A stretch of 46,604 bases of DNA, from the NCBI GenBank assembly GCA_018825145.1, contig JAHJFD010000034.1, positions 1 through 46,604 on the forward strand. The letters are read 5' to 3'. The DNA is from Patescibacteria group bacterium. Its GTDB lineage: Bacteria > Patescibacteriota > Gracilibacteria > UM-FILTER-43-11. Positions 10,979-35,164 of the stretch are shown here, one piece after another; position 1 is the first letter of the stretch, and every line of letters starts with the position of its first letter. A program made the translations under genes and the position numbers. The notes beneath the pieces were generated by a model, which had not been told where the DNA came from, made no database searches, and saw only the letters and a list, made by a program, of their open reading frames with translations.

Positions 10979-10992
10979 AAAATAAGCAGTCT

Positions 10993-11535: not shown

Positions 11536-11537
11536 TT

Positions 11538-13211: not shown

Positions 13212-13217
13212 GGCACG

Positions 13218-14784: not shown

Positions 14785-14799
14785 ATCTCTTTTTAGTAT

Positions 14800-14843: not shown

Positions 14844-14859
14844 CAATGATCCAAAAAAA

Positions 14860-15609: not shown

Positions 15610-15611
15610 TT

Positions 15612-17348: not shown

Positions 17349-17353
17349 GAAAA

Positions 17354-18548: not shown

Positions 18549-19190
18549 CTACTCAACAACATTGAGTACAACCAATTTACTGTTGTCTTCAGGGAGTTCA
18601 GAACGTTTCACTTTGAAGCTATCCAATGGCTCATCCGCCTTAGCCCCCATCACCGACAAAAATGCGTCACGACTGTTTAAATCCAGCTTACTGCCCTCGG
18701 TGTTATAGCACATAGGAATAATAATACGTGGCTCGATCTGTTCGATGACTTCTTTGGCCTTTTTTGGCTCAAGACATCCTTTGCCGCCAACCGGCACAAA
18801 TAATATACCCACTTCACCTACCTGTTCCAGCTGTTCAGGGGTCAGTTTGGTTCCCTGTGCGCCCAAATGACAAAGACGTATATTCGCCCAGTTGATAACA
18901 GTAATATTGTTCTCCAGCTGTTCTTTGTCTTCCTTCTGATTATGAAAAGAGTGGATCATTTTAAAATGAATCCCCCTGGTTTCGTATTCGCCGGGCCAAC
19001 TGAAAACTTTTGGGTCACCCTCAACTGCATCAACATTATTATATGGAGACGCATTATGACTGACCGTCACCGCATCGGCTGAAAGCGTCGGTAATTTGAG
19101 ACCGATTTCTTCCTGAAAAGGATCGGTTACTAATGTAACGCCCCCTTCGGTGACCGAAAAACAGGCGTGTCCGTAAAACTTGATTTCCAT
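18549..19190 (-). CDS. Metallo-beta-lactamase-fold protein, metal ligands lost (probable pseudoenzyme)
   Basis: 213 residues resembling UlaG/UPF0173-like hydrolases: MEIKFYGHACFSVTEGGVTLVTDPF, PKVFSWPGEYE, and IPVGG-like LFVPVGGKG with RIIIPM near the end. The catalytic HxHxDH motif, expected after VTVSH, reads VSHNASPYNN. The later HLGDLG-type Asp is Ala (HLGAQG), and the expected MHY is MCY. All but one of the expected metal ligands are therefore missing. It lies directly upstream of the liv genes on the same strand and may share their transcript. It could be a structural or regulatory remnant. Confidence 0.8.
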   Translation of the reverse strand: MEIKFYGHACFSVTEGGVTLVTDPFQEEIGLKLPTLSADAVTVSHNASPYNNVDAVEGDPKVFSWPGEYETRGIHFKMIHSFHNQKEDKEQLENNITVINWANIRLCHLGAQGTKLTPEQLEQVGEVGILFVPVGGKGCLEPKKAKEVIEQIEPRIIIPMCYNTEGSKLDLNSRDAFLSVMGAKADEPLDSFKVKRSELPEDNSKLVVLNVVE

Positions 19191-19258: not shown

Positions 19259-20302
19259 TTAGGCTCTGATCGCCCGGATAGCCCCCCAGACAAGAATACC
19301 TAAAGAAGCTAAAGCGAAAGCAAAAAGTAATGTTTCAGCCGGTCCGGTGTCGGGCTGCCCATGCACCCCGGAAAGAACGGCATTGTAGGTTTGCTGGCTA
19401 TAGGGCTGTACCGCTGAGTAAGTAACATTGGCCTGATAAGCCGCCTGCTGGGTAACCGCCTTATTCTGGGCAAGCACGTCATAGGGGCTAACCGTGACGG
19501 TATGCGTGTTATAACGATACACGCCGCCGCCGGCTCCCGCACCCGCCCCAGCCTGCATGGCCCCCTGCGCGCCAAACTGGTCAGACTGTCCGCCGGGAAT
19601 AAAAACAGCACTTGGCTGCGCGATACCGGCTCCGTGCAAACCGGCCGCCTGATCCGTTAGAAGCTGCATCAGATCCTGAATCTGCTGATCACTTTGCTTT
19701 TGTTTTTCCTTGAAATCTTCAAGCTGCTTGCTGAGCGCCTGCAAAAGCTTGGCATTGGCATCCAGAGATTCCGCACCTTCTACGACCGCTTCTGCGACAT
19801 CAACTGTTTCGGTTTCCTTGTCGGCTTCATCAATGACAACACTCTCGGCACCAGTAACCGCCGCGGCTTTGTCCATGTCACTGACGGCCTCCTCGCCACC
19901 TTCGATTTCGGTGACAGGTTCAACCTGAATCGTTACCGCCTCTGATTCCGCCTGAATAACAGCCTCGTCAGCTGCTTTTTCTTTTTCAGCCTCCGCCTGC
20001 TGCTCTGCCCCTTCTTCTTGTTTACCGCCAAACAAAGCTCCTTCCTGCTGTTTTTCATAATCGGGAACCACCTTCAAGGTGCCGTCAAAGAGCTGCGCCT
20101 GCATAAGGCCGGCGAACTCCTGAGGAACAAGAAGCACAGTCAGAAAAATCACCAACGCCACAAAGCCGCCGCCCCAAAAGACGCGGTTTCTAACCTTGTA
20201 TGTTTCTCCTTTCGGAGATTTTAAAGCAACCTTATTCACAGCGGCGGACGTCGCTTCATCGGGAATTGTGATCCAAACGGTGTCTTTTTTTAGGACAGTC
20301 AT
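19259..20302 (-). CDS. Bitopic coiled-coil membrane protein at the end of the cohesin-dockerin operon
   Basis: 347 residues from MTVLKKDTVWITIPDEATS; the open frame upstream of this overlaps the preceding gene and I reject it. The ATG comes one base after the stop of that gene. Residues ~30-50 form a membrane helix (FWGGGFVALVIFLTVLLV). They are followed by a long Glu/Ala-rich acidic region, a coiled-coil-like stretch (ALSKQLEDFKEKQKQ), a Gly/Ala-rich low-complexity part, and a C-terminal helix (LLFAFALASLGILVWGAI). No family is recognised. Its position suggests it anchors or spaces the surface complex at the membrane. Confidence 0.75.
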   Translation of the reverse strand: MTVLKKDTVWITIPDEATSAAVNKVALKSPKGETYKVRNRVFWGGGFVALVIFLTVLLVPQEFAGLMQAQLFDGTLKVVPDYEKQQEGALFGGKQEEGAEQQAEAEKEKAADEAVIQAESEAVTIQVEPVTEIEGGEEAVSDMDKAAAVTGAESVVIDEADKETETVDVAEAVVEGAESLDANAKLLQALSKQLEDFKEKQKQSDQQIQDLMQLLTDQAAGLHGAGIAQPSAVFIPGGQSDQFGAQGAMQAGAGAGAGGGVYRYNTHTVTVSPYDVLAQNKAVTQQAAYQANVTYSAVQPYSQQTYNAVLSGVHGQPDTGPAETLLFAFALASLGILVWGAIRAIRA

Positions 20303-20303
20303 T

Positions 20304-21362
20304 TTATGCTGGATTAGATTTCGATTTATTTTTTCGGAAAGCCAGTGTGCCGCCAAGACCAAGGGCTGAAAAAGCCAGCCAGCCGACCAGTGGGCCGTTC
20401 TGAGGCTGTAAAGGTATTCTGGCAAGAAGAGATGCCAGAATTTCGTCAAAAGGCGAAGTGGATGACAGCGGTTCATTGATGATGACTGCCGCCTCATCGG
20501 AATAATCGCTTTCCCTTGACTGGGAATCATAGGCAGTAATTGCAAAGTAATAGACTTCGCCATTATTCAGTCCGTCCAGACGATACTGGCTGACTCTGCC
20601 AATTGTTCTGCGTCGGGTATACATGCCGGAAGTTTTTCCGTAATAAAGGTTATAGCCAACCAGCTCCGGTTCACTGCTCAGGTCCCACTTAAGATCGACA
20701 TAACCCGGACCGGTATTCACCTGTAAATTCTGGGGTCTTTGCAGATTGGCAAACCCATAACCGGTCACGATGACCTCGGCCGGAGGAAGCTCCGTAACCG
20801 CTTCCTGACCTCCGTATGGCTGTGCGCCTGGATTGAGGTTGATTATCAGTGCTTCCGGCTCTCCGGAAAGAATATTGACCGGAAAAGCCTGGTCGACAAT
20901 ATTCACGCTGGTATGTCCCAGTTCGGACACCTGATAGTCGTAAGCCTCGATCGGCGTGGCAATCGCGTAAGGAGTTTTTACTTTAAACCGGACAGTCGCC
21001 ACCTTAGCCTGAGCCTGGGCAAAGCCGCCGGAAATATTGGAGCGCCCCAATTTAACCAGCCCCTGGTCGGTACTGATTTCGGTTTCACCGGGAGCGGAAA
21101 GGGTGAAAGGAGATTCATCGGTATCAATGCTGACCGCCTCCAGAACGTCTGCGTTGTAATCCAGCCAGGAACGGACAGAGACAACATTCTGAAGTCCCGG
21201 ATTCTTGAGGGTAAGATTCACATCGAATTCATCCCCCACTCTGGCTTCAGTGACGGCGGAAGTTATTTCCAGCGTGGCATCCGCCTGCTGGGCCAGAGTT
21301 ATGGCGTAACAGACAGTAATGGATACAAGCAAACCGGTAATAATATATAGAGTTTTCTTCAT
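20304..21362 (-). CDS. Cohesin-like and fibronectin-III surface protein with C-terminal anchor
   Basis: 352 residues. After a signal peptide (MKKTLYIITGLLVSITVCYA), residues ~27-165 resemble a cohesin domain: ITSAVTEARVGDEFDVNLTLKNP, SVRSWLDYNADVLEAVSI, then VATVRFKVKT. Residues ~208-300 are a fibronectin type III domain (RPQNLQVNTGPGYVDLKWDLS... YYFAITAYDSQSRES). A C-terminal hydrophobic helix followed by RKNKSKS serves as membrane or wall anchor. Cohesins bind dockerins, and dockerin-like tails occur in the two large proteins of the same operon. It is a paralogue of the lipoprotein at 21364. Cohesin assignment is by pattern, so moderately sure. Confidence 0.75.
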   Translation of the reverse strand: MKKTLYIITGLLVSITVCYAITLAQQADATLEITSAVTEARVGDEFDVNLTLKNPGLQNVVSVRSWLDYNADVLEAVSIDTDESPFTLSAPGETEISTDQGLVKLGRSNISGGFAQAQAKVATVRFKVKTPYAIATPIEAYDYQVSELGHTSVNIVDQAFPVNILSGEPEALIINLNPGAQPYGGQEAVTELPPAEVIVTGYGFANLQRPQNLQVNTGPGYVDLKWDLSSEPELVGYNLYYGKTSGMYTRRRTIGRVSQYRLDGLNNGEVYYFAITAYDSQSRESDYSDEAAVIINEPLSSTSPFDEILASLLARIPLQPQNGPLVGWLAFSALGLGGTLAFRKNKSKSNPA

Positions 21363-21363
21363 C

Positions 21364-21936
21364 TTATTGATTTAGGATAAGAAGGGGTGACTGAGGTTTA
21401 AGCAGGATATTAACAGGGGCTCCGTCCAGCATCATGTTGGCGGAAGTATGCCCGGTTAAATCCTGTTTATAGTCATAAGCCTCAATCATCGCAACGCCAT
21501 CGGAAACCCGCCCAAAGTGAAGATCCGCCACAACAATCTCTTTATCATTTACTGCCGAAACAGCGGAACGCCCAAGCATCATCAGACCTGCCTCATTATC
21601 AAAGTTGTTATCATAGGGGGCAGTGAGTTCAAACGCTGAAACTGCGGTGTCGATAGAAATACCTTTCAGATCATCCGGGTTATAAGCGAGCCAGGCCTGA
21701 AGCGAAGTAATCGGCTTCTTTTCGGGATTATCCAGCATAAGGCGAAGTACAAAACCCTTGTCATCAGCCTTAACCTGTACCAGGGAAAGCTTTACTGTTT
21801 TTTTCATTTCCTGTGCCTCAGCAATACGCTCCATGCCAGCCTCGGACACGTTCTTCGGGCTGCAGCCAGCCAGCAGATTGGCGGAAATAACAACAATAGC
21901 GGCCGCGATGAGAATTTTTACAGATTTCAGATTCAT
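21364..21936 (-). CDS. Cohesin-like lipoprotein
   Basis: 190 residues, lipobox LLAGCSPK near residue 24. The mature part resembles the cohesin-like domain of the next gene: LVQVKADDKGFVLRLMLDNP, SLQAWLAYNPDDLKGISIDT, IEAYDYKQDLTGHTSANMM and APVNILLKP all have counterparts there. As a single cohesin-like domain on a lipid anchor it could tether a dockerin-bearing surface protein to the cell. It lies between the two giant proteins and its paralogue on one strand with gaps of 1-18 nt. Confidence 0.7.
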   Translation of the reverse strand: MNLKSVKILIAAAIVVISANLLAGCSPKNVSEAGMERIAEAQEMKKTVKLSLVQVKADDKGFVLRLMLDNPEKKPITSLQAWLAYNPDDLKGISIDTAVSAFELTAPYDNNFDNEAGLMMLGRSAVSAVNDKEIVVADLHFGRVSDGVAMIEAYDYKQDLTGHTSANMMLDGAPVNILLKPQSPLLILNQ

Positions 21937-21954
21937 GACTTGAATTTTGTTTGA

Positions 21955-24900
21955 TTATTGAATTTCGCCGCCGGCGGGTTCCGAAGTGATAGGAACAGTG
22001 GCATTTGGATTGGCCTCAGGCGGCTGACCCGCCTGATTGGCGGCGGTAGCCTGCGCGGCCGCATTGGCGGCGGCACTAGCCACGTTTTCCCCCTGCCCGA
22101 AGTAAATAGTTCCGTAAACTGAAGAGAAAATAGTGAAGTCACTGAAATCCACCTTTCCGTCGCCATTTAAGTCGGCAAAATTGGCGGCCGCCTTATGCTG
22201 AGCGACAGCCAGGTTATAGCCTTTAAAGCCTTTATTGAGCGATACCGGTAACTTGGTGCCATCGTAAGATTCCAGGCCCTCAAGGGTAATGCGGTATTTC
22301 TGCTCGGACTTCTGAGGCCCGGTCTTAATATGCAAAACATTTCCCGGAGCCAGGAGTGAAACGCCAAGAACATCCAGCTTTTGGGAAGTGTTCCCGCTTT
22401 CATAAATTGAAACGCCAAACTGAGTACTTCCATCGGTCTGGCTCATGCCGGAACGGACGGAAGAAGGTTTAAGGTTATCCCTGAATTCCAGTTCAACCAT
22501 ATTTACATCGCTCGCCTGTATGTACTCCAGAACAGGAGCCTTATTCAGTGCCTTAAAACCGTTGAAATTCAGGCGGCTCGACGCCCCTTCCGTCATTCCG
22601 CGGCCCACAATGTCTTTGACTGACTTGGAAACGGAAAGGACATAGCGCTTGCCGGGAGTCTGGCTAAAGGTAGTCAGAGTAACCACGGTACCGGAAGCAT
22701 TGATTGTTGCGCCGGTAACAGGCAGTTCTTCATTTATATCGCTTTCACTGCTAACCGTGAACCCTTTTCCGGAAGCGCTTACGGTAGTAGCTGAGATTTC
22801 TTTGTTAAACAATACTTCAAGGGTCGTTTCGCCGGTTGGAATAGCGGCAAGGGCCTTTGGCGGCTCCTGCTGGTCGGAAATGGAATCACCCGTGCCCACA
22901 TAAACCGGAATACTGCCCTGGGTTGTCTTACCGCCGGCATCCGTCACAATGACCCCTACCTGGTAAGGGTTAGGACTGGCAGTCGTGAGCGTGCTGACCG
23001 TGACATTCGGAAGGATAAACCATTGTCCGTTCATCCCCTCCTTCACACTGGGATTCATGCAGACAAGCACATTGGAACCCGTGGGACAACTGCCGTCGGA
23101 AGGCGCGGCGGCCTGACCGCCGCCCAAAGTACCGTTGGTCTGCGTGCCCACCTGCCCGATTTCACTTAAGTTAGCGATCACGGATTCGACATCGCCGTCG
23201 TCATCCTGAATGAAAGCGTACAGGGTAATCGGCGTCTGTCCGTCATTGAGCGCCACACGGGGGGTGGTGTAAGCCCGGTCCGCGACAACCCTTGGCGCAT
23301 CGCCAAGCGTATCTTTGTGGGTCACATCAATCTGTAATATCAGGCTGGTCATTCCTCCCGTTTTATCGGTCGCGACAATGTTAATATCGTGCATTCCGAG
23401 CGGAGCTATTTTTGGAACGGTTAAACCGCTCGCCTTATACCAGGCGGTAAAACCGTCCGTTCCGGCATCCGCGTCTTTCTGGAGCTTGACCGGAGAAAGG
23501 CCGAGAGTCCCGAAATTGGCTGTCACATCCTGCACGGCGGCCAGGCCATCGGCGTCCGAAACAAAAACATTGATATCGAAAGCCGTCTTGCCGTCCCGCG
23601 GAATGGATTTGCGCGGACTGATGTAGCTGAGGTCACTGCTTATAGTAGGGCCGTTCGCGGAAGCGGAAACCTGCAGCGAAACAGTTTTAGTGGATTTTTC
23701 ACCCGTTTTGTCCGAGGCGGTAATGGTAATTGTGTAATTACCCTCACCGGTTGCCGTAGGAATAGTGAATTCTTCCGACTGGAAGTATTGCGTTTCCAGT
23801 TCAGTCCCTTCCGCCACCTCGCTTACCGCGGTCAAAGGCATAAAACCAATTCCCAGCGCCCCCAGATCCGCGATTACGGAATTGATGGTTGACGCGCCGT
23901 CCTGATCTGTTACCTGAGCGGAAATCCTGAGTGGAGTAGTGGAATGAGGCGACACGCTGATCGGACTAACATAAGCCTGATCGATCACCGGCGCCACGCT
24001 TTTGATAACGTCTTTACTAACTCGAATACTTACAGTACCGGTAAATTTTTCACTGTCCTTGCGCACCTCCACCGGAAGCAAATAAGGCGCATCTTTCGTC
24101 TGCACAGTAGCCGGCACCGTCGTTTCATAGGTATACCACTGGCTGTACTGTGGCTGAGTGCCGGTGTCTTTGACCATTTCGGTGGTCGAAGGCCCGCCGA
24201 TCTGGCTGAGGTTCACGACCACGCTGGAAATACTGGAAAGACCCACAGGATCTTCCACAAGCACCCATAATTTGGTCTTCGTCACACCGTCATTCGCAAC
24301 ACTGTACGGATTAGCTTTCGACTGATCCGAATGTACGGTCAGCACCTGCTCGGGAAGAGTAACAAGAAGCGCGCTGGTAAAGACCAGCGAATTATCGGCG
24401 TTGTCTATCAAAGTAACATTGTAAAGATCCGCCGCAAAATCAGCCGGTACCGTAAAAGTCAGCGATGTGGCCGTCTGACTGACAATTGTCATGACCTCGG
24501 TACCAACCCGAACCTCTTTTACCACATCAAGGTTCTTACCTGAGATTATAACGTTAGTCTCAAGTTCATTGGTGATCTGACTGGGTGTCAGCAAAGTAAT
24601 AGACGCCGTTGGCAACTGAAACCCGAAGAAATTATTCACTTTGGCATTGCCAAGCCGGAGACCGTTGGAATCTTTGACGCCGTTAAACACGACAAAATAG
24701 TTCAGAGCGGAACTCTGAATGGCCGTTTTCAGTTCATAAGTATCCGAGTCAATCTTAGTCACGCCGGTCACAACAAGACTGGTACGTACAGCGGGGTTAA
24801 GCGGATCTGTAAACCGGAAAATATTGTGGTTCACAGGAGTGAAACTGCTCTCCAGAATCTCACCGCTAAAGTTGATTCGTAAAGTCTGCGCATCGATCAC

Positions 24901-27114
24901 ATCGATTGAACTTACTGTGACCGGACTTTTGGCGGCCTGCGTGTTGTAACCGGCAAAATAAGCGGCTCTTTTTAATGAGTAATCCCCCTGATACGAGTAA
25001 ACGTCAGCAGGATTGAAAACCGTTACTTTATATATAGTAGCCGGATTAAAAGGACCGGCGGCTGTAATCGTGACACTCTGATAACCAGGATCAATTACCA
25101 TAGATCCCACAATTGCGACGTCATTAATCTGAAAATCAGCCAGGGTGACATCCCGCTCATCGATGTTTTCGGAAAAGAAAACACGCACCTGAGTACTCGA
25201 GATCGCCTGAGCGGAAGAGATATTGAGAGCGCGGCTTACCGCGAAATCTTTGGCCGCAAGGGTATTCGCCCCACCGTCACTGATTCGGACAATGTAGTGT
25301 GTGTCAGGGTCAAGACGGGCGGCCATAACCACCGCAAGATCGTTTCCGGACATGCCAACGGAAGACACAATCTGCGAAGCAAGCGGCGGTACACCGCTGT
25401 CATAAAGCACACTGACATGCGCCGGCAGAACAGTACTGAAATTCAGGCTGCCAGCGGGAATAATAAAGGCATCTTTCTTGCTGACCTGCACTGTGCCCAC
25501 TGAGTTTACAGAAGTACTGTGTCCAAGTCCCCAGAAGGAAATGGATTTGTAAGTATCGTCAACCGACACGCCCTGCACGTTTGTCAGCCAGGCCGGCGCG
25601 CTCACCGCGAAAGTGAAGTTAGCATTAGCATTATTAAACACAGCGTTTTCCAGGGTCAGAGTCGAACCGGAACCGGAAATGGACTGGTTATAAACACCAA
25701 GCTGACCGTCATCAATCAAAGTGCCGGCATTACCTGCAACGGTAGTATAAAGTCGTCCTACAGGATTGTTTATTATACTTCCAAGTTGAATAGTCTCATC
25801 AAAAGTTAACTGCAGGCGATAAGTACCGCTCACATCGGTAACAGTAGCCCCAATCAAACGTGGTCCGTTCTTCGCTCCGGCAAAAGCCACCCTGTCAACG
25901 CCCAGACCCGCCCCATCCGAATCACGCAGAATCGCGCTCTGACTTACCGCCGAAAGCAGATAAGTATTGTCTTTTAAAAGAGGTGTGGAAACTGAAAGGG
26001 TAACATTAGCCCCTGAAACCGAAGCCACATTATTAATTACGACTGCACCACCGCCCTGAATATTCAAAGCAAAGTCTGATTTAGTGACCGAAGCCGCCTT
26101 AACCGCATGGGTAAAAGTAGCGGTAATCGTATTGTAACCTGTCACCGTGGCACTGCTCATTCCAAAGTCGGAAAGTGCAGAAGTTCCTGTTCCGTAACCG
26201 TGAAAAATCACGTTGGAATAAGCGCTGTCCAGTGTGCCCTGCTGATTGGAAGCAATACTGATAACGGTAGGCCGCATCGTAATCGTATACTCCTGACCAG
26301 GCGTTTGAGCCGCTGTTGTAAGAACCGCGTATTTTTGACTGTAGCCATAGGAAGTTCCCGATTCAACAAGGCTGACAGCCAGATCTGAGCCAAGATTACA
26401 GGCATCTGTACCGCTGTTAAAAGAACCATCTTTACAAACATCATAGTCAACCGTGGTACCGATATTAGAAAGATAGTCGGAAAATTCCACCGCAATGTGC
26501 GTGCTGTCGATAGCCTGGGCATTCAGTGCCTTAAGCTCATTCTGCCCCTGCACCGTAATGGTGCTGGCAGGCATACTGGCTGTCGTCACCGGATCGGAAC
26601 CGTTTAGCAGAGCCAGGTCTTCAAAAGTTACATTAATCACCTGCCCAACCGGCAAAGCGTCATTGAGTTGAGTATTTAATTTGAAAAGGGTTTGGCCAAC
26701 GGTGATGGAAATCGGCGTATTCAGAATAATCGTCACAATCAGCTTGCCGTTCTCCGGCGCGGCCGTCATCTGGAAGGCGGCACTCTGGAACTGGGTGCCG
26801 GCATCAAAGATGATCGGGTTATTCTTAAAAATCAGCGCGTTAACAGGGCTGTATTTAAGGGCAAAAGTAATACTGTCAAAATTCGCCAGATTGGACGCGC
26901 TCTTGATTTCGAGCAGACCTGATTCACCGACACCGCCTGTGTAGTTGGGCATATAAAGGTCGGTCGCTCCGGCCGGGATTCCTGCGTTTGTCAGATCCGC
27001 CATATTCAGGGCCGGATTCGTGTGCACCAGATAAGTCGTGAGAATGGTCATCAGCGCGATGCCGATTCCCATCAGGTACTTATTCCATCGATTTTTTGGA
27101 TTTGGATTTTCCAT
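21955..27114 (-). CDS. Giant multi-Ig surface protein with N-terminal cohesin-like and C-terminal dockerin-like motifs
   Basis: 1719 residues. An N-terminal membrane signal (YLMGIGIALMTILTTYLV) is followed by a cohesin-like region (~50-180), then several SbsA/Big-type Ig repeats (for example STQVRVFFSENIDERDVTLADF and AQTLRINFSGEILESSFTP). Near residue 870 is an IPT/TIG-like domain (ITLLTPSQITNELETNVIISG). After it come at least three cadherin-like repeats marked by V(S/T)D.DG, and two more Ig repeats. Near residue 1660, FADLNGDGKVDFSDFTIFSSVYG is one dockerin-type calcium loop and helix; the usual second half is absent and an Ala/Pro-rich tail follows. Its ATG overlaps the stop of the preceding gene by one base. 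Likely a fibre-like adhesin or scaffold. Confidence 0.75.
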   Translation of the reverse strand: MENPNPKNRWNKYLMGIGIALMTILTTYLVHTNPALNMADLTNAGIPAGATDLYMPNYTGGVGESGLLEIKSASNLANFDSITFALKYSPVNALIFKNNPIIFDAGTQFQSAAFQMTAAPENGKLIVTIILNTPISITVGQTLFKLNTQLNDALPVGQVINVTFEDLALLNGSDPVTTASMPASTITVQGQNELKALNAQAIDSTHIAVEFSDYLSNIGTTVDYDVCKDGSFNSGTDACNLGSDLAVSLVESGTSYGYSQKYAVLTTAAQTPGQEYTITMRPTVISIASNQQGTLDSAYSNVIFHGYGTGTSALSDFGMSSATVTGYNTITATFTHAVKAASVTKSDFALNIQGGGAVVINNVASVSGANVTLSVSTPLLKDNTYLLSAVSQSAILRDSDGAGLGVDRVAFAGAKNGPRLIGATVTDVSGTYRLQLTFDETIQLGSIINNPVGRLYTTVAGNAGTLIDDGQLGVYNQSISGSGSTLTLENAVFNNANANFTFAVSAPAWLTNVQGVSVDDTYKSISFWGLGHSTSVNSVGTVQVSKKDAFIIPAGSLNFSTVLPAHVSVLYDSGVPPLASQIVSSVGMSGNDLAVVMAARLDPDTHYIVRISDGGANTLAAKDFAVSRALNISSAQAISSTQVRVFFSENIDERDVTLADFQINDVAIVGSMVIDPGYQSVTITAAGPFNPATIYKVTVFNPADVYSYQGDYSLKRAAYFAGYNTQAAKSPVTVSSIDVIDAQTLRINFSGEILESSFTPVNHNIFRFTDPLNPAVRTSLVVTGVTKIDSDTYELKTAIQSSALNYFVVFNGVKDSNGLRLGNAKVNNFFGFQLPTASITLLTPSQITNELETNVIISGKNLDVVKEVRVGTEVMTIVSQTATSLTFTVPADFAADLYNVTLIDNADNSLVFTSALLVTLPEQVLTVHSDQSKANPYSVANDGVTKTKLWVLVEDPVGLSSISSVVVNLSQIGGPSTTEMVKDTGTQPQYSQWYTYETTVPATVQTKDAPYLLPVEVRKDSEKFTGTVSIRVSKDVIKSVAPVIDQAYVSPISVSPHSTTPLRISAQVTDQDGASTINSVIADLGALGIGFMPLTAVSEVAEGTELETQYFQSEEFTIPTATGEGNYTITITASDKTGEKSTKTVSLQVSASANGPTISSDLSYISPRKSIPRDGKTAFDINVFVSDADGLAAVQDVTANFGTLGLSPVKLQKDADAGTDGFTAWYKASGLTVPKIAPLGMHDINIVATDKTGGMTSLILQIDVTHKDTLGDAPRVVADRAYTTPRVALNDGQTPITLYAFIQDDDGDVESVIANLSEIGQVGTQTNGTLGGGQAAAPSDGSCPTGSNVLVCMNPSVKEGMNGQWFILPNVTVSTLTTASPNPYQVGVIVTDAGGKTTQGSIPVYVGTGDSISDQQEPPKALAAIPTGETTLEVLFNKEISATTVSASGKGFTVSSESDINEELPVTGATINASGTVVTLTTFSQTPGKRYVLSVSKSVKDIVGRGMTEGASSRLNFNGFKALNKAPVLEYIQASDVNMVELEFRDNLKPSSVRSGMSQTDGSTQFGVSIYESGNTSQKLDVLGVSLLAPGNVLHIKTGPQKSEQKYRITLEGLESYDGTKLPVSLNKGFKGYNLAVAQHKAAANFADLNGDGKVDFSDFTIFSSVYGTIYFGQGENVASAAANAAAQATAANQAGQPPEANPNATVPITSEPAGGEIQ

Positions 27115-30100
27115 TATGGTTTCTTAGTCACTTTATTAAAAAGCAAAATCACGTCTACAAGTGTCACACCTCCCACACCATCAACGTTGGCCGCCAGAAG
27201 CTGGGCGGGAGTAGGACTGGGGTTAATTCCCGTCGCGATCTGAAAAGCCAGAATCACGTCGACCATATTGGTGACTCCATCGCCATTCACGTCTCCTTTG
27301 CCGATCTGGCCGATACGGATCGGGAAGACATAGTTAAGGGTATGATTTGAGGCATCGGAAATACTGAGGATAAGCTTGTAAACTCCGTCAAAAAGATTCT
27401 GGTCGGTTGGAATTTCAATAGGAATATTGTAGGTTTTGTACTGCATCGCGAGCGGTTGCGGCGTAGGTGTAGGCGTTGTACCGTTCGTACCTGATGTACC
27501 GGTTTCACCAGTGCCGGTTCCGTTCGTGCCGGTTCCGTTCGTGCCTGTTCCGGTCGTGCCGGTGCTTCCGGTCGTCCCCTGTTCCACCACTTTGACTTCC
27601 TGAAGGAACGGAGTAGCCGAGAACCAGATGGCCGTGGAATCCTGGTTGATCTGCTGATATGTGCTATATGTGGAATAAACCAGCGATGTGCTGATAGACT
27701 TGATATCATCAACTGTATCCACGTCGGAAATTTTTGTCTGCAAAGTTATGCGTGACCCTTTGGTCACAGAACCTGAACCGATACGGCGGACAAATTCGAT
27801 TACCGGACCTGAATCGACGGTGATAGTCACATAATTACTGTTCACGACTGAACCGTCGGCGTTTTTGTACTTAGCGACAACTGTGGAAGTGCCGCTCTTA
27901 TCCCCCAGCTTGATCAGACCGGAATCAAGCGAAGCCTGATTCAGGTAACCGACCGGCGTGTTCACCCATGTGAATTCGGTGGGCGGAAGGAGCTTGGTAG
28001 CTCCGTTATCGTACTGTGCAATCACCTGAAGCCCGTAAGTTTCACTGGCAGGCAGAGGAATAGCATTATTATAGGTAGGAAGAATCGCCACATTAGATTC
28101 AAGCGCGGTAGTGTCGATATCAATTATTCCGTTCTCATCGATGTCCTGAATATTGTCGCCGTCCGTATCGGAACTCTGGTTGAGTGGCTGCAGAATCAGC
28201 ATGCCCGGATAACCGTTGATCGTGGTCACTTTAACAATTGGCTGAGCCAAAGAATTTGTAAGCGCGGCAATAGTAGTTGCCAGACCGGTACCCGCGCCAT
28301 TCACAATCGCGTTCACCTTGGAAATCTTATTACTATAGGTACCCGCGGGAAGTGTGATGTTTACAGTCTGCCCTTCAATCACAAAAGTCTGTCCGGCCGC
28401 CTCGGGATTATGAATCGCGATAATCACGCTCTTGTGAGCGTTATCCACAGTCAGCGCGGGAAGTTTATCTTCGGTTCCTTTGTCAAAAGTCACTCTTAAT
28501 CCGGAAATTTTGTTAACAGTAATCGATAACGGAACCGATTCAATCGTTCCAATTTCCGCCTCACCGGTGTCGTAACGCGCCGTGATGTTTGTCACGCCGG
28601 GCTTAAGCGCGGTAAGTAAACCTGTGCCATCAACCTTGGCCACTTCCTCATTACTCGAGAACCATTCGATTCCGCTGGCCGCGGTAATATTTTCATATTC
28701 ATTTATTTCATTATTCGCGCCTCCGGCAAAAGCGTTGATCTGTACAGTGTCGGATACATCCAGCACATCACCGGGCTGTCTTCCGACCATCTGCAAAACA
28801 ACTTTCTTTTCGATGACGTCGATTTCAAAAGAAGCTATACAGCCCTGCTTGTCCATGGCGGACAAAATGGAAGTACCGGGACGCTTGGCGTACATAATCG
28901 CCACATGCGAAACATCATCCGATTGTTTTTTAACGGTTGAGGTAAAGGTACCGGGAACATCAGTGAGGACACCTTTGGCAATAGCGCCCAATATAAAGGC
29001 GCCGGCGGTAAAATCACTGACTTTTACTTGAGCAGCCTTACCCGGCGTCATTGCACCGGTTGTCTGAACTGTGGCTGAAATCTGACCCGTTACAGTGCCA
29101 GAGTAAGTTCCTGAAACAGAACCGGAAACAACACCTGTTACAGTGCCACTAAGAGGCATACCCACACCAGCACTTGAACTGTAACTACCACTCCCCTCAA
29201 GAAAACCAGAAAGCGTACCACCTTGCACGGTAACCGGTACCACCTCATCCTCAATCGACACATTGACCGTATAGCTAGCACCACTAATATCATAATCAAT
29301 CGGTATGGTAGCAGTGACCGTACATGTTTCGGTTCCTGATACGTACACAGGCGGATCACCTGTATAGTCCTTATCACAATCCGCAATATTATAGGTTCCC
29401 TTAGTGGAATCAGCCGTTTCTATGGCTGGTGGGATATTAATAGTCGTATCCACAAAATCCGCCGTACCTTTATCTTGTTGTGAAGCCTCAGAAAGGGAAG
29501 TGACTTCTAAAATAGAAGGATGTGATGTGATCCACTGAATTTCGCCGGCGCTGTGACTGGCAAAAACAATGGCACTGTCTCCCTGTAAAACTTCGTTATC
29601 AAGTTTGAGTGGTGTAGTCAGCACCCCCAGACCTTCATTCACTCCGTTCGCCCCTCCCGCGAAACAAGGGGGTCCAACCTGCACGCTGTCCACAATACAA
29701 ACATATCCGTTATTAGGATGAGTACCCATTTCAGTCGCCTGCAATAAGATAATTTCAGGATTAGTTCCATTTGGATAAGCAACAAATGGTGAATCACTGC
29801 CCATTAAATCATTAAATACATAAGCAAAGTTAAGGGCAGTAAGCGCTTCATTTCCGGTGCCTGCACTCCGCACTTTTATTTCGTAAACTCCGTCAGCGTT
29901 ATTCGCGACAATTTTAGCCCGTGCGTCAATTCCGTTAATCGGATCGACACTGACATCCGGTGCCAAACCGATATGAATCTGGAAAGTTTTCGCCCCTGCC
30001 ACAGTCGTAACAGGATAATTCAGATCGATCGAGCTCGTGATACTTCCGAAATCAAAACCGGTCGAAGTGACGGCAAACGTACCAAGATCAGCTGGAGAAA

Positions 30101-30608
30101 TATTTACAAAACCTTCCCCATAGCCACGCAGAATAGAAGTCTTCAGAAAGGAACAGGAAACAGGTTCAATGGTCAGATCCGCCGCAACAGGATTCATTTT
30201 TACACCCGACACTTCGATCTGCACCTTACAGGCAGTACTGAAAGTGTCCGGAAGGATAATCTTGCTGCCGGCAAAAACGGTGCCTGCGGGACAGGGTAAA
30301 ACCGGACTGCTGTCGAAAGTAATGAAAGACCCTTCCAGATCAGAACCGCTTACAATGCCATCAGTATTAGGCGCCACCAGGTCAACAAAAACTGAATTGA
30401 TGGTCACCACGCCATTGACCGGATAGGCAGAACCCTTGGGCGACACGAACTCAGCACTTAAAACGTCAACAGGAGCAAGGCCGTCCAGAATACTGGCGGA
30501 AAGCCTTCCGCTATCATACCGGGTCACATGGTAAGTTACTGCCACAATGCCGATGGCAAACGCCAGTGCAAGAAATGAATTGACTATTTTTTTGATGAGA
30601 TCTTTCAT
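27114..30608 (-). CDS. Large secreted Ig/Big2 protein with C-terminal dockerin
   Basis: 1164 residues with an N-terminal signal anchor (SFLALAFAIGIVAVTY). The first ~450 residues are beta-rich and unassigned. A Ser/Gly/Thr repeat (GTVTGVVSGSVSGTYSG) follows, then a Big2-like domain (residues ~640-720: WFSSNEEVAKVDGTGLLTALKPGVTNITARYD), more Ig-like modules, and a Thr/Gly linker coded by a 15-bp minisatellite. The last ~65 residues are a two-part dockerin: GDVNGDGVTNMVDVILAFQIATG and a second, degenerate copy VDGVGGVTLVDVILLFNK. The dockerin should bind a cohesin-like protein of the operon in a calcium-dependent way; the partner is inferred. Confidence 0.8.
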   Translation of the reverse strand: MKDLIKKIVNSFLALAFAIGIVAVTYHVTRYDSGRLSASILDGLAPVDVLSAEFVSPKGSAYPVNGVVTINSVFVDLVAPNTDGIVSGSDLEGSFITFDSSPVLPCPAGTVFAGSKIILPDTFSTACKVQIEVSGVKMNPVAADLTIEPVSCSFLKTSILRGYGEGFVNISPADLGTFAVTSTGFDFGSITSSIDLNYPVTTVAGAKTFQIHIGLAPDVSVDPINGIDARAKIVANNADGVYEIKVRSAGTGNEALTALNFAYVFNDLMGSDSPFVAYPNGTNPEIILLQATEMGTHPNNGYVCIVDSVQVGPPCFAGGANGVNEGLGVLTTPLKLDNEVLQGDSAIVFASHSAGEIQWITSHPSILEVTSLSEASQQDKGTADFVDTTINIPPAIETADSTKGTYNIADCDKDYTGDPPVYVSGTETCTVTATIPIDYDISGASYTVNVSIEDEVVPVTVQGGTLSGFLEGSGSYSSSAGVGMPLSGTVTGVVSGSVSGTYSGTVTGQISATVQTTGAMTPGKAAQVKVSDFTAGAFILGAIAKGVLTDVPGTFTSTVKKQSDDVSHVAIMYAKRPGTSILSAMDKQGCIASFEIDVIEKKVVLQMVGRQPGDVLDVSDTVQINAFAGGANNEINEYENITAASGIEWFSSNEEVAKVDGTGLLTALKPGVTNITARYDTGEAEIGTIESVPLSITVNKISGLRVTFDKGTEDKLPALTVDNAHKSVIIAIHNPEAAGQTFVIEGQTVNITLPAGTYSNKISKVNAIVNGAGTGLATTIAALTNSLAQPIVKVTTINGYPGMLILQPLNQSSDTDGDNIQDIDENGIIDIDTTALESNVAILPTYNNAIPLPASETYGLQVIAQYDNGATKLLPPTEFTWVNTPVGYLNQASLDSGLIKLGDKSGTSTVVAKYKNADGSVVNSNYVTITVDSGPVIEFVRRIGSGSVTKGSRITLQTKISDVDTVDDIKSISTSLVYSTYSTYQQINQDSTAIWFSATPFLQEVKVVEQGTTGSTGTTGTGTNGTGTNGTGTGETGTSGTNGTTPTPTPQPLAMQYKTYNIPIEIPTDQNLFDGVYKLILSISDASNHTLNYVFPIRIGQIGKGDVNGDGVTNMVDVILAFQIATGINPSPTPAQLLAANVDGVGGVTLVDVILLFNKVTKKP
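27511..27555 (-). repeat. 15-bp minisatellite in the dockerin-protein linker
   Basis: GTGCCGGTTCCGTTC occurs twice in tandem, followed by a third unit with two changes. It encodes Gly/Thr/Asn linker units of five residues and could vary in number by slippage. Confidence 0.75.
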
Positions 30609-30630
30609 TTTGTTTTTTTGATAGTTTTGT

Positions 30631-31638
30631 TTACATCATCAGCATCCCGTTCAGAACCAGGACAATCGCCAGGCTCATCGAGGCGGCTTCCTCAAGCAGA
30701 TGAAAATTGAGGTACCTGACAAGAGGCAGATGATTGAATTTTCTGGACCAATGCTCCATTCTGTTTTTATGAAGCCTTGAAGTCTTAAGCATTTTAATCA
30801 GTTCTCTTTGTACATATTTCCCCCACTCCCTGGCGTTATCTTCAACAATGATGTAACGCATAGTGGCGAAAGTAATCTGCGTCAAAAAGAAGACAGTCAG
30901 CAGTACCGCAAACATTGTGGCGAAGTAAAACACCAGAATCGATCCAAGGATTGCAATTGTAACGGCGGTGTAAACCTGCCTCTGGCTGATATAGTCAGCC
31001 TGCTGTTTCAGATGGATTTTGACAAGGGAATGCAGAAGATAAGCAAGGCTGGCCAGGATCGGCAGATCGACTCCAACCGGCGCTGAAAGCAGGGCGTAAT
31101 TAAAACTGCTGAACTGCCCATGCAGAACCGAAGGTACCTGAGCCGTCAGGTAAAATCCCAAAAGAATCAGCAAAAAAACAAATAGCTGAGCAGCAAAGAG
31201 CCAGGCTCCCCGCGCATGGATTCTTTCGTTCACCGAGTAGAGCACGTCAAGTTCACGCTTACTGTCGCTCATGGTCAGTTCACCGCGGCGAAAACGATCT
31301 ACCAGTTTTCTGTGAAACAAGTGAATCTTCTTTTGTTTAAGCTGAAGGTTCACTGACGGATAGAGCGTGATCAGTTCGACTAGCAAAGCCATCACAATTA
31401 CGGCCGCTATAAGACTGCCGCCAAGCAAACTTGTCAGGCCATTCAGAAAACCGGAGAAAGTATGCAGGAAACCGCCCCAAAAAGAAGACATATCTGTGAG
31501 TCCCATATTCAGAGAAGCGGCCAAATGCCAGCCTGCAAGGCCATTCACCTCGACATAATTAACACCTTGCATGTAAGCCGCGTAAAGACTGACGGCAAAC
31601 AGAATGACACAAGTTAGAATAAGTCCTGTTCGTTTCAC
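30631..31638 (-). CDS. YidC/Oxa1-like polytopic membrane protein
   Basis: 335 residues with about five or six membrane helices. After an N-terminal helix and a loop, the core reads LIAAVIVMALLVELITLYPSV followed by a basic cytoplasmic hairpin (QLKQKKIHLFHRKLVDRF, ELDVLYSVNERI) and ARGAWLFAAQLFVFLLILLGFYL. This order, including the Lys-rich coiled hairpin and the LY...G...Q pattern, resembles YidC/Oxa1 insertases, though it is divergent and has an extra basic C-terminal segment before the last helix. It is the first gene of the cohesin-dockerin operon, so it may help to insert or assemble these surface proteins. It could instead be an unrelated membrane protein of the same layout. Confidence 0.5.
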   Translation of the reverse strand: MKRTGLILTCVILFAVSLYAAYMQGVNYVEVNGLAGWHLAASLNMGLTDMSSFWGGFLHTFSGFLNGLTSLLGGSLIAAVIVMALLVELITLYPSVNLQLKQKKIHLFHRKLVDRFRRGELTMSDSKRELDVLYSVNERIHARGAWLFAAQLFVFLLILLGFYLTAQVPSVLHGQFSSFNYALLSAPVGVDLPILASLAYLLHSLVKIHLKQQADYISQRQVYTAVTIAILGSILVFYFATMFAVLLTVFFLTQITFATMRYIIVEDNAREWGKYVQRELIKMLKTSRLHKNRMEHWSRKFNHLPLVRYLNFHLLEEAASMSLAIVLVLNGMLMM

Positions 31639-31670: not shown

Positions 31671-31699
31671 ATTATACCAAATTTGTGTAGCTTCAGCAA
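31671..31699 (-). promoter_or_regulatory. Promoter of the YidC-like/cohesin-dockerin operon
   Basis: TTGCTG (31699-31694), a 17-nt spacer and TATAAT (31676-31671), 32 nt before the ATG at 31638. It is the only strong promoter I see for the six-gene unit. Confidence 0.75.
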
Positions 31700-31945: not shown

Positions 31946-32007
31946 TTCTGATGCACAAAGTTGGTGCAAAATCTGTGCAAAGTTTGCACACAATCTGTGC
32001 ATCAGAA
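31946..32007. promoter_or_regulatory. Nested TGTGCA palindromes, candidate regulator-binding array
   Basis: Outer arms TTCTGATGCACA (31946-31957) and TGTGCATCAGAA (31996-32007) are perfectly complementary. Inside lies TGTGCAAAGTTTGCACA (31974-31990), also palindromic, plus a further GGTGCAAA half-site at 31963. The site is about 85 bp upstream of the -35 of the VirB6-like gene. Confidence 0.7.
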
Positions 32008-32091
32008 AACTGGTAGTCCAGTGGACACGCCAGGGAGCCTGAGAAAAATGTGTGCTTTTATTCTGGTTGTCACGCCCCAAATGATGAATAA

Positions 32092-32157: not shown

Positions 32158-34182
32158 ATGGCAGGTAACACAAAACAAAAACTCGCCAGGAAATTTCTCA
32201 GCATTCTGATGCTTGGACTTTTTGTGTTCAGCGCCCCTCTGGCCTTAGCCCAGGACGGCAGTGAAACCGGCGAAGGAAATGACACCCTATTTGAACCGGT
32301 TGAAAAACAGATCATTCAGCTTACCGACGAAGGAACTCAGGATGACTGGGGTATTTCAGAATTTGAAACCGCCGGACTCAAATTCCTGATCCGGGGAAAG
32401 GAAGCACTAACCTGGTCACTCAGTATCGAAGACGGGGGCTTCCACAACGCGGCCATCGAAAAAAGCTACAACAAAGTCCTGACTATCGTAAACAGTCTTT
32501 TCATTCTGGGCATGCTGGCCATTGCCATTATGTGGATGTTTTCCATTCTGATTCCACGCAAATATCTGAAGAAAGTCATTCTGGTTTACAGTCTGGCAGT
32601 GATCTTCATCAATTTTGCCCTGCCAGTAAACCAGCTGTTTATTGACGGAACAAATCTTCTTCAGAAAACCCTGCTGACGGAAAAAGACGGGACCATTCAG
32701 ATTACTGATATAGTGCAGACTCCCGCCTACAGCGAAGCGCTCAGCTTCCGGAATCAGGGTAACAACAGCGTGGCTAACAAAAAACAAATCGAACCGATAA
32801 CCCTGAAGATCGCCGACGCCGAAGGCGAAACAACCTTAATCGGAAAAATCCGCGTGCCCCAGGGGGAAGAAATCAATGAAGAAGTCATCTCCCTGAACAA
32901 TCAGGAGATTTCTCTGCTGAAGAGCACCCCTTTCAACATCTATCAGGAGCAGACCCTCTTCCGATTTTTACTTCTGGTGGCAACAGGCATCGCTTACTTT
33001 ATCATCGCTCTCATCTTCGTTCTCAGGATTGTGATCCTATGGGCCCTGCTGATTCTTTCACCGATTTTGCTGCTGCTCGCGATCTTCCGGAGCACGCGCG
33101 GCTGGTTCCTGAACTGGCTAAGTATGTATGGACGCTGGCTACTCATCGGCCCACTGACCGCGCTTGGCATTGCCGTCATCGTAAATGTCTGGCAGCTGAG
33201 CGGCCTGCCGATTTCTGTCAGCGAAACCTACACGCCCGCGGTTTTTTCGGCCGAAAAGGTGTCTAACATTGTCTTTTATCTTCCCGGCAAAGACACCGCC
33301 AACACCCTGAGCAATACCCAGGAAATGATGGAATACATCATCTTCCTGATCATGTTATACCTGCCGATCTTTCTTGGCTTCACCCTTACCCGCAGAAAAG
33401 TTCTGCATGAAAGCCTGGTGGCAGTCACCAAAAAACTGATCAGCAATTCGCAGATTTCTCAGCAGCAGCTGATTCAGCAGGCCCTGGCCATTCAGGAAAA
33501 GGACGAAGAAAAAAGAGAACGGCCCATGGGCATTGTCGATAGCTTCAGACATCTGGTAAATGACAAAATAGGACTCTTTGCCGAAACAGCCATGCCGGTA
33601 CACAAACTGAAAATCAGTCCCGAAACACCAAGCGCTCCGCTCCCGACAGCCTCTAACTTTCTGCCGGAAAACCTTAGTCAGATGCCCGTTCCGAAAATGC
33701 TTGAATTGCTTGGTATGCAGAAAAATTCCAAAGCCAGCCACAAAAAAGTAATCGAAAAAATGGCCTTCACGGAATCCATCGCGGACAAAAAAGAAAAAGG
33801 GCAGACAATGGCCGTGATGCACGAAATTGAGGCCAGGGCCGGCGAAAAAGACAAAGAAGCACTGGCCATTATGCAGCAGATAGAAACAATAAGGGAAACC
33901 TGCCCACTAAATAACCTGCCAACACCGGCAGCTGAGGTTCACGTGGAAGGCGCGCGTCCGGAATCCGTTTCCAGCATAAACATCAACGTGAACGACGCCA
34001 GGCCCGAGAAAGACCGGAAAGTGCGCGACTCCAGCTTCGGTTCCAAAAGTGAAGAAAAAGGCAAAAAGTCGACAGGTTCCGAAAAGTCACAGCCCCCTTC
34101 GGAGAAAGATGAGGAAAAGAAGCAGAAGGAGGATCAAGAAAATTCAGATCCCACCAATGAGGAAGAACTAACGACTAAATAA
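32158..34182 (+). CDS. VirB6/TrbL-like polytopic secretion protein
   Basis: 674 residues. Signal peptide (FLSILMLGLFVFSAPLALAQ), an extracellular part, two membrane helices (~105-165), a second outside loop, then a hydrophobic block (~265-345: LLLVATGIAYFIIALIFVLRIVILWALLILSPILLLLAIF and a further helix) and a last helix near 390-410. The remaining ~260 residues are cytosolic, Glu/Lys-rich and probably disordered. The layout of several helices with a long polar tail, next to VirB2-like genes, fits the VirB6/TrbL inner-membrane component of type IV secretion. No catalytic motif. First gene of a four-gene plus-strand cluster. Confidence 0.65.
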   Translation: MAGNTKQKLARKFLSILMLGLFVFSAPLALAQDGSETGEGNDTLFEPVEKQIIQLTDEGTQDDWGISEFETAGLKFLIRGKEALTWSLSIEDGGFHNAAIEKSYNKVLTIVNSLFILGMLAIAIMWMFSILIPRKYLKKVILVYSLAVIFINFALPVNQLFIDGTNLLQKTLLTEKDGTIQITDIVQTPAYSEALSFRNQGNNSVANKKQIEPITLKIADAEGETTLIGKIRVPQGEEINEEVISLNNQEISLLKSTPFNIYQEQTLFRFLLLVATGIAYFIIALIFVLRIVILWALLILSPILLLLAIFRSTRGWFLNWLSMYGRWLLIGPLTALGIAVIVNVWQLSGLPISVSETYTPAVFSAEKVSNIVFYLPGKDTANTLSNTQEMMEYIIFLIMLYLPIFLGFTLTRRKVLHESLVAVTKKLISNSQISQQQLIQQALAIQEKDEEKRERPMGIVDSFRHLVNDKIGLFAETAMPVHKLKISPETPSAPLPTASNFLPENLSQMPVPKMLELLGMQKNSKASHKKVIEKMAFTESIADKKEKGQTMAVMHEIEARAGEKDKEALAIMQQIETIRETCPLNNLPTPAAEVHVEGARPESVSSININVNDARPEKDRKVRDSSFGSKSEEKGKKSTGSEKSQPPSEKDEEKKQKEDQENSDPTNEEELTTK

Positions 34183-34215: not shown

Positions 34216-34710
34216 ATGCAAACTGAACTCGGACAAGTAAATAACTTCGGCGAATTCATATCTCTGATCTGGGCCTTCGGCTCACGGGCCATTATTGCCT
34301 TTGCGATTTTCTTCATTGTACTGGGTGCCTTTTATTACATTGCCTCCGCCGGTAACGAAGAAAAAATCGAACAGGGAAAAGAAATGGTCTACGGCAGTCT
34401 GATTGCGATTGCGATTGTTCTGCTCTCCGGCGTTCTGATAAGAATTCTGCACCAGCCAACTCAGGGTGTGATAGGCCATCTATCCGAACTGCCGGAAGTA
34501 ATAGGCAACGCCACCAATATTCTCGTCAGCCTGATCGGAGCCTTCAGCTTCCTGATGCTGGCTTACGCTGGTTTCCTGTATTTAACGGGAGGTGGTGAAA
34601 AAACAAGAATCATGAAAGCCCATCGCGCTTTTGCCTACTCAATTTATGGGTTAATTGTGGGCGTTCTCGCTTATGGAATAGCCAATACCGTCATTAAATT
34701 TTTAATTTAA
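34216..34710 (+). CDS. Small four-helix membrane protein, tandem VirB2/TrbC-like
   Basis: 164 residues with two copies of a two-helix unit. The first is IIAFAIFFIVLGAFYYIASAGNEEKIEQGKEMVYGSLIAIAIVLLSGVLI; the second is LVSLIGAFSFLMLAYAGFLYLTGGGEKTRIMKAHRAFAYSIYGLIVGVLAYGIA. Each has a G(N/G)E(E/K)-type polar turn between helices, as in VirB2/TrbC pilins. This looks like an internal duplication of the single-unit protein encoded next. It may be a pilin or a membrane pore part. No signal peptide is evident. Confidence 0.65.
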   Translation: MQTELGQVNNFGEFISLIWAFGSRAIIAFAIFFIVLGAFYYIASAGNEEKIEQGKEMVYGSLIAIAIVLLSGVLIRILHQPTQGVIGHLSELPEVIGNATNILVSLIGAFSFLMLAYAGFLYLTGGGEKTRIMKAHRAFAYSIYGLIVGVLAYGIANTVIKFLI

Positions 34711-34720
34711 TTGAGACCTC

Positions 34721-35083
34721 ATGATAAAAGAAATATGGCACTCCATCATAGGTACTGCTTACGCCCAGAATCTGATCCCCTGTGAAGACGGAACCATGGC
34801 CGACCCAACCGTTGGATGCACGGAAACGCCCAAAGCGATCGTCAGCACACAGTCGGAAATACTCAGTATTATTCTGAAGACAGCTGATTCCGTAGTTACT
34901 GTAGCTGTAGCCGCATCAGTGATAGTTCTGATTTACGGCGGCATCGTTTATGCCATAAGTATGGGGAACGAAGACAGGATAAAAACCGCCAAGAATATTA
35001 TTTTCTGGAGCACTTTCGGACTGATCGTCACTCTGCTGGCTAAATACATCGTGACGGCCGTACTGGTAATTATTACCCAATAA
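34721..35083 (+). CDS. VirB2/TrbC-like pilin-type protein
   Basis: 120 residues. A short N-terminus with an AQN cleavage-like site (TAYAQN) is followed by a small loop containing two cysteines (PCEDGTMADPTVGC) and then two helices (VVTVAVAASVIVLIYGGIVYAI and IIFWSTFGLIVTLLAKYIVTAVLVII) joined by SMGNEDRIKTAKN. The GNEDRIKTAKN turn matches the other two VirB2-like proteins of the cluster. The two cysteines may form a disulphide outside the cell. Confidence 0.7.
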   Translation: MIKEIWHSIIGTAYAQNLIPCEDGTMADPTVGCTETPKAIVSTQSEILSIILKTADSVVTVAVAASVIVLIYGGIVYAISMGNEDRIKTAKNIIFWSTFGLIVTLLAKYIVTAVLVIITQ

Positions 35084-35119
35084 TAATTTAATCTGTCCAT
35101 AAATTTTTCTCTTTCCCTC

Positions 35120-35147
35120 TTGTTCGCGCACCATAAACTTGTATAAT
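35120..35147 (+). promoter_or_regulatory. Internal promoter before the MopE-like/VirB2-like gene
   Basis: TTGTTC (35120-35125), a 16-nt spacer and TATAAT (35142-35147), 17 nt before the first ATG. This gene may be expressed separately from those upstream. Confidence 0.65.
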
Positions 35148-35164
35148 TTTTTTGAACAATAAAA

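Follow-up and report, generated by a model that had tools for sequence, protein, structure and literature searches.

What would a bacterium build with a run of genes for cohesin- and dockerin-bearing surface proteins that is headed by a gene for a relative of the membrane insertase YidC? The question is raised by a stretch of 46,604 nucleotides, here called the window, which is contig C40 of the 1.16-Mb genome G000, a 93% complete metagenome-assembled genome (MAG). Relatives of this genome are labelled Candidatus Peregrinibacteria, Patescibacteria and, once, Gracilibacteria. The bacteria are ultra-small and probably host-dependent. The answer that we favour, at somewhat better than even confidence, is that the genes form a family-specific Peregrinibacteria operon in which a dedicated insertase or chaperone assists in assembling, on the cell surface, a cohesin-dockerin structure that depends on calcium and probably serves contact with a host or partner.

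A first-pass annotation of the window had described 19259-31638 as a single operon of six co-directional genes behind one strong promoter. The list of open reading frames bears out the six genes, which all lie on the minus strand, nearly end to end. From 31638 downward, they encode the YidC-like protein (335 aa), two giants with immunoglobulin-like (Ig) domains, Dock1 (1164 aa) and Dock2 (1719 aa), the cohesin proteins Coh1 (190 aa) and Coh2 (352 aa), and a bitopic protein (347 aa). A Lactamase_B_3 hydrolase (213 aa) follows. In this order, successive genes are separated by gaps of 22, -1, 18, 1, 1 and 68 bases. The operon extends past 19259, where it had been thought to end; each of the nine complete loci has the hydrolase gene downstream. 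The promoter held up in part. Its TATAAT -10 element (31676-31671) sits in a block that is near-identical across three genomes. The -35 element, TTGCTG, agrees with the consensus at just 3 of 6 positions, and a sigma-70 consensus scan of the minus strand upstream of the operon listed no promoter. Of this putative promoter, only the -10 element appears convincing, and the scan lends no support to its strength.

Nine genomes, that of the window and eight others, all from one Peregrinibacteria family, carry the operon as an unbroken run that starts with the YidC-like gene and finishes with the hydrolase gene. This is the synteny that the first-pass annotation had proposed to look for. The common order is YidC-like, extra dockerin proteins in some, Dock1, Dock2, Coh1, Coh2, bitopic protein and hydrolase. 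The whole order is kept down to ~30-45% protein identity, and chance is therefore excluded. The smallest version, in G351, is without Dock1. In other relatives, additional proteins with an N-terminal membrane segment are inserted between the YidC-like protein and Dock1; these bear EGF, DUF4215 or TSP3 repeats, and several have dockerin-like tails. A juxtamembrane motif resembling NPxLFRA, defined by a loose pattern, is present in 23 of 32 such proteins, which may share a common ancestry.

The components also come and go together. Dockerins are found in 16 of the 18 genomes of the family, and the YidC-like homologue and the bitopic protein in 15 each. The YidC-like homologue is absent from the other 335 genomes of the class, and the bitopic protein is confined to the family as well. 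In two family members, G341 and G350, cohesins and dockerins are missing along with the YidC-like and bitopic proteins and the VirB6-like protein encoded beside the operon. Several relatives carry dockerins on further contigs, with up to six matches overall in G349, so the cohesins of the operon may serve additional clients. Cohesins are more widespread (144 of 341 genomes of the class). Outside the family they occur in different layouts, such as Dock-Coh-PxTG in L046, a Coh2-like gene with a bitopic gene in L052, and an LTD-cohesin-dockerin protein with a membrane-anchored cohesin protein in L043. The YidC-like gene is an addition specific to the family of the window. As a separate observation, five loci from several outside families (L043, L044, L045, L049 and L058) encode a protein of ~500 aa, followed in several of them by a smaller cohesin protein with a C-terminal membrane segment. 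The ~500-aa protein of the L043 pair is composed of LTD, cohesin, fn3 and weak dockerin domains. The pair represents a further arrangement of cohesins and dockerins in these bacteria.

The first-pass annotation had proposed a search with the cohesin (PF00963) and dockerin (PF00404) profiles and had described two anchored cohesin-like proteins. Coh2 matches PF00963 at 35.4 bits (cut-off 24.1) and the fn3 profile PF00041 at 27.7 bits, also above its cut-off. This is the one PF00963 match above cut-off in the genome, and each cohesin protein of the locus has a single cohesin. The first-pass annotation had named a lack of significant cohesin hits among the outcomes that would refute it, and this outcome did not occur. 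Coh1 has no Pfam match of its own and is assigned to the cohesins via its homology to Coh2, which is seen in BLASTP between relatives (down to 1e-24) and in their alignment. A third cohesin had been overlooked and lies in Dock2, right after the membrane segment. An alignment of 18 Dock2 N-terminal domains finds Ruminococcus flavefaciens cohesins (5m2o) at E 2.1e-4. The AlphaFold2 model of the domain has a mean predicted local distance difference test score (pLDDT) of 86.5, and the best 50 Foldseek matches to it are all cohesins (top E 6.9e-8), the non-cellulosomal cohesin of Archaeoglobus included. VIA-align gave Z 15.6 over 132 residues, with a root-mean-square deviation (rmsd) of 2.1. Comparison of the Coh profile with this domain by hhalign was uninformative (probability 2%), and the fold model decided its identity. 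Judged by that model, the domain is a cohesin. Dock2 thus combines a socket near its N-terminus with a plug, or half of one, near its C-terminus, so that chaining would be possible. The N-terminal region of the window's Dock1 was also considered as an extra cohesin; this was unsupported, as antibody-like chance matches were all that the profile search returned.

The giants were said to be Ig proteins with dockerin tails. Pfam places Big_2, Big_5 and TIG domains in their stalks. PF00404 matches nine of nine aligned dockerin tails (best 6.8e-13), and the profile of the tails retrieves solved dockerins. The Dock1 tail has the two EF-hand-like repeats of a type I dockerin and scores 22.9 bits when counted with its neighbours, which equals the cut-off of 22.9. 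Several features of these modules weigh against the favoured reading. In the genus of the window, Dock1 has a degraded second loop (NVDGVGGVTLVD). Dock2 has one EF-hand loop at 18.3 bits, which is below the cut-off and amounts to half a dockerin, so the claim of two dockerin tails stood for Dock1 and not in full for Dock2. The combined profile of Coh1 and Coh2 reaches solved cohesins only at E 0.011. Moreover, the N-terminal segment of the giants may be either cleaved or retained. In complete Dock2 proteins, the single EF-hand is followed by a conserved tail with the pattern PDxTVPxTxxPAGG (window 21955-22125, PNATVPITSEPAGGEIQ).

These features would suit a different explanation, in which the cohesin-like and EF-hand domains are generic beta-sandwich and calcium-stabilised adhesin modules that do not pair with each other. 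The incomplete dockerins of the window, together with the low sequence identity of its cohesins to those of known function, speak for it. However, the family gains and loses cohesins and dockerins together, both are encoded in one operon, and Dock1 retains two complete EF-hand loops in most other relatives. We consider the absence of pairing unlikely. Pairing within a cellulosome, or another carbohydrate-degrading complex, is far less probable still. Cohesins and dockerins are best known from cellulosomes, but the two dockerin matches in the genome are both on the giants, neither of which has an enzyme domain, and no scaffoldin with several cohesins is encoded. A cellulosome was rejected on these grounds, in line with the first-pass annotation.

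The YidC-like protein belongs to the YidC/Oxa1 superfamily by both PF02096 homology and core fold. PF02096 (60KD_IMP) matches 10 of 13 family members, with a best E of 1.3e-8; the window copy falls below the threshold. The model of the protein has a pLDDT of 69, and its top Foldseek matches are YidC structures. Comparison with Bacillus halodurans YidC gave Z 13.0 over 208 residues (rmsd 5.3), and the next unrelated fold scored 6.3. A profile of the YidC-like family found zero matches among the sequences of the Protein Data Bank, so that only fold and Pfam show the kinship. A separate canonical YidC was found in all 14 other family members searched with PF02096 (E about 1e-46 to 1e-51). The operon copy is therefore a second, specialised paralogue, which goes beyond the earlier claim that the operon has a YidC-like protein of its own. 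In G000 itself, unlike the other members searched, the PF02096 search did not find the canonical YidC, which most likely reflects MAG incompleteness or an assembly gap. That the YidC-like protein serves as the sole YidC of the cell was rejected, since both congeners and the other searched family members have the canonical copy.

The Lys and Arg residues of the paralogue, by hydropathy and charge, are clustered in predicted cytoplasmic segments and loops on one side of the membrane, and the C-terminus is therefore predicted to lie outside. Compared with canonical YidC, the protein has a predicted extra C-terminal membrane segment. Its most conserved segment is the cytoplasmic C1 loop (QLKQKKIHLFH...; mean 0.81). 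In two genomes, G349 and G352, the protein is extended by at least 510 residues. The fused region is probably extracellular, judging from the predicted topology, and BLASTP detected no homology between the fused segments and the remaining operon proteins.

The paralogue departs from YidC at one position in particular. A positively charged residue in the hydrophilic groove has been described as strictly conserved in all YidC homologues, and Escherichia coli YidC R366E is inactive unless a suppressor mutation is added (PMC8920935). In the paralogue, Glu88 aligns, without gaps around the first core membrane helix, with the conserved Lys of eight canonical YidC proteins of the same family. This Lys in turn aligns with the conserved Arg of B. 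halodurans YidC (3wo6) and E. coli YidC. The groove residue is Glu in 15 of the 15 genomes that carry the paralogue. With this residue acidic, the paralogue is treated as a YidC homologue and not as a canonical YidC.

A naturally acidic groove might, by analogy with R366E, signal lost insertase activity, which counts against the favoured reading. For the YidC relative, the principal rival is a structural membrane platform that would no longer be an insertase: it would have kept the fold, lost the groove charge, gained an extra C-terminal membrane segment and come to display its C-terminus outside as one more component of the surface complex. The invariant Glu, set beside the inactivity of E. 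coli R366E, would fit a platform. So would the long and probably extracellular extension found in two genomes and the retention of canonical YidC elsewhere. However, the C1 loop is the most conserved segment, as expected if the ribosome, the signal recognition particle or Sec is still a partner. Moreover, a residue that is invariant, and not drifting, suggests a selected function. The platform is a possible but clearly less probable explanation. Together, the invariant Glu and the conserved loop tilt towards retained insertase activity, and the evidence leaves both options. We put at about even the chance that an insertase of the YidC superfamily, its groove acidic by nature, has evolved into a dedicated factor for assembling a cohesin-dockerin surface structure and in two lineages has been joined to a long extracellular region, which may belong to that structure.

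In the assembly that we favour, the giants would be inserted via their N-terminal membrane segments, so that their Ig and TIG stalks and C-terminal EF-hand dockerins stand outside the cell. The dockerins would plug, with calcium, into the cohesins of the lipoprotein Coh1, the C-terminally anchored Coh2 and Dock2. The result would be doubly anchored or chained fibres, which accessory dockerin proteins, such as the EGF and TSP3 types of relatives, could join. The YidC paralogue would act as a dedicated insertase or membrane chaperone for the operon proteins, with an acidic groove in place of a basic one. The most likely role of the structure would be to link the cell to a host or partner, possibly beside a divergently encoded pilus that resembles a type IV secretion system (T4SS). 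Calcium-dependent pairing of tail and socket is expected from established knowledge of cohesins and dockerins, and the intact EF-hand loops are consistent with assembly by calcium. Binding between dockerin and cohesin has been verified for archaeal, non-cellulosomal modules (PMC9012536). Two further points tell against the reading. It is operon logic that suggests that the paralogue serves the membrane-anchored giants. Likewise, the organism is known from metagenomes only, so host contact, though plausible, is argued from the biology of the phylum. Epibiotic growth of Southlakia, a Patescibacterium in culture, requires a dockerin-domain protein as well as the T4SS and its pilins (PMC10633639).

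The bitopic protein, described as coiled-coil in the first-pass annotation, is present with a coiled-coil-like middle, and its start has been moved. Relatives support ATG 20302 in place of the mechanical start at 20563, which lies within the cohesin gene. All 12 aligned proteins have P-x-[TS]-G-P ahead of the C-terminal membrane segment. Two sortases are encoded in the genome, and P-x-[TS]-G-P of the bitopic protein and PQNGP of Coh2 may be sorting signals. Table 1 lists the features with their coordinates.

Table 1. Features of the surface operon and its surroundings (window positions unless a locus is named).
Feature	Position	Strand	Evidence or remark
YidC/Oxa1-superfamily paralogue, six predicted hydrophobic segments	30631..31638	-	PF02096 in relatives; fold; hydropathy
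Codon of Glu88, which takes the place of the conserved basic residue in the YidC groove	31375..31377	-	alignments
Dock1: N-terminal membrane segment, Big_2 domain, C-terminal dockerin	27114..30608	-	
Type I dockerin of Dock1, two loops, second degraded	27129..27299	-	PF00404; alignment with solved dockerins
Dock2: N-terminal membrane segment, cohesin, Big_5 and TIG, half dockerin, conserved tail	21955..27114	-	
N-terminal cohesin domain of Dock2	26545..26970	-	profile match, fold model, structural matches
Single EF-hand (half dockerin) of Dock2 (DLNGDGKVDFSD)	22129..22197	-	PF00404; loop kept in relatives
Coh1, cohesin lipoprotein	21364..21936	-	lipobox LLAGC; homologous to Coh2
Coh2, cohesin and fn3, C-terminal membrane segment after PQNGP	20304..21362	-	PF00963, PF00041
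PQNGP motif of Coh2, possible sorting signal	20391..20405	-	sequence; kept in relatives; two sortases in genome
Bitopic protein: WITIP N-terminus, coiled-coil-like middle, C-terminal PDTGP, membrane segment and basic tail	19259..20302	-	alignment
Seventh conserved gene, Lactamase_B_3 metallo-beta-lactamase-fold hydrolase	18549..19190	-	PF13483, E 1e-38
Putative promoter, TTGCTG-N17-TATAAT	31671..31699	-	sequence; block conserved in three genomes
VirB6/TrbL-like membrane protein, divergent	32158..34182	+	PF04610, 27.4 bits, above cut-off
Three T4SS pilin-like genes, divergent	34216..35860	+	PF18895 above cut-off in all three
YidC-like fusion of G349, 855 aa, 253-kb contig	L055:16540-19107	-	extension with 12 Cys
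YidC-like fusion of G352, at least 935 aa	L015:897-3703	+	extension with 17 Cys; PKD domain above cut-off

The VirB6-like and pilin genes diverge from the operon in the loci long enough to show them, and a gene for a VirB4-like ATPase is on another contig. The T4SS of Patescibacteria is of a monoderm type, is poor in relaxases and has been proposed to be co-opted; monoderm T4SS depend on surface adhesins (PMC12102498). The operon could be the contact or adhesin module of the adjacent T4SS, its fibres keeping donor and target cells attached to each other while transfer proceeds through VirB6 and the pilins. The conserved divergent genes, the ATPase and the reliance of monoderm systems on adhesins would agree with this. 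However, G346 and G351 have the operon and no VirB6-like match (both contigs end at the YidC gene), and cohesin clusters of other families (L046, L052) have no T4SS neighbours within 20 kb. Adjacency is positional and by itself implies no functional link. We regard such a module as rather unlikely. Between the two divergent operons, at window 31960-32030, are GCAC-containing repeats (TGTGTGCAAACTTTGCACAGATTTTGCACC) that have similar counterparts in L004 and L005 and are a possible operator.

Further genes of the window are recorded here as observations. A Fic/DOC-domain protein with a winged-helix C-terminus is encoded beside the pilin genes (36110-37204); BLASTP found no homologue of it in the loci of relatives. 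Directly downstream of the operon and on the same strand is a branched-chain amino-acid ATP-binding cassette transporter composed of Peripla_BP_6, two permeases and two ATPases (14056-18511). LivJ follows the hydrolase also in the congener G344 and not in G343, and this adjacency is not conserved more widely. Six paralogues of ~560 aa (1903-13229) have a treble-clef zinc-finger start, a weak match in the one tested, and end in SPDRPEVVYCEQCYLKEVY or a similar tail. ORF6N-domain genes are interspersed among them on the opposite strand. Similar arrays are located just downstream of the operon in L059, L062, L071 and L078.

The observation behind the first-pass annotation is confirmed, and its interpretation as a calcium-assembled adhesion or host-contact structure is partly supported. 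The account left out the Dock2 cohesin and the seventh gene, and it also overlooked that the charge in the YidC groove is inverted and that the divergent T4SS genes are conserved. The gene set, with its charge-inverted YidC, suggests a purpose-built machine that assembles a contact structure on the cell surface. The favoured reading proposes one specific way in which uncultivated Peregrinibacteria could make a surface for host contact, with enzyme-free cohesin-dockerin modules paired in one operon with a putative membrane-insertion factor of their own. If true, the rule of a positive groove residue in every YidC homologue would have a natural exception in the paralogue. This residue is central to the debate on whether substrates are inserted by electrostatic attraction or whether the groove need merely be wet. 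Published acidic grooves worked only with suppressors, and the debate can be tested directly in a natural family whose groove Glu is invariant.

The ingredients are known: non-cellulosomal cohesin-dockerin pairs, YidC paralogues and giant Ig proteins. In the open-access literature searched, a scope that leaves many journals uncovered, cohesin-dockerin in Peregrinibacteria appears as a passing co-mention only, and no description was found of the combination, the natural acidic groove or the YidC fusions. Like the cellulosome, the operon has cohesins, type I dockerin modules and anchoring proteins; unlike it, the dockerins are on no enzyme and each protein has one cohesin. Non-cellulosomal cohesin-dockerin proteins of Archaeoglobus fulgidus, ANME archaea and the glycoside hydrolases of Clostridium perfringens are alike in the cohesin fold, in dockerin tails and in having no multi-cohesin scaffoldin; 2xdh, 2w1n and 2jh2 are among the best structural matches of the Dock2 domain. 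Here, in contrast, a single operon holds all modules, on enzyme-free giants and anchors, together with a YidC paralogue. With the MPF-FATA-like T4SS of Patescibacteria and its arrays of VirB2-like pilins, the operon shares divergent VirB6/TrbL-like and pilin neighbours; it contains no T4SS component itself, and the link is positional only. A second paralogue beside the canonical one is also found in Gram-positive bacteria such as Streptococcus mutans, which has YidC1 and YidC2; there, YidC1 has effects on adhesion and on how the cell surface is formed (PMC8546722). The paralogue is homologous in sequence and fold to the YidC/Oxa1/Alb3 insertases, and it differs from them in its invariant groove Glu, its predicted extra C-terminal membrane segment, its C-terminal fusions and its encoding with surface proteins.

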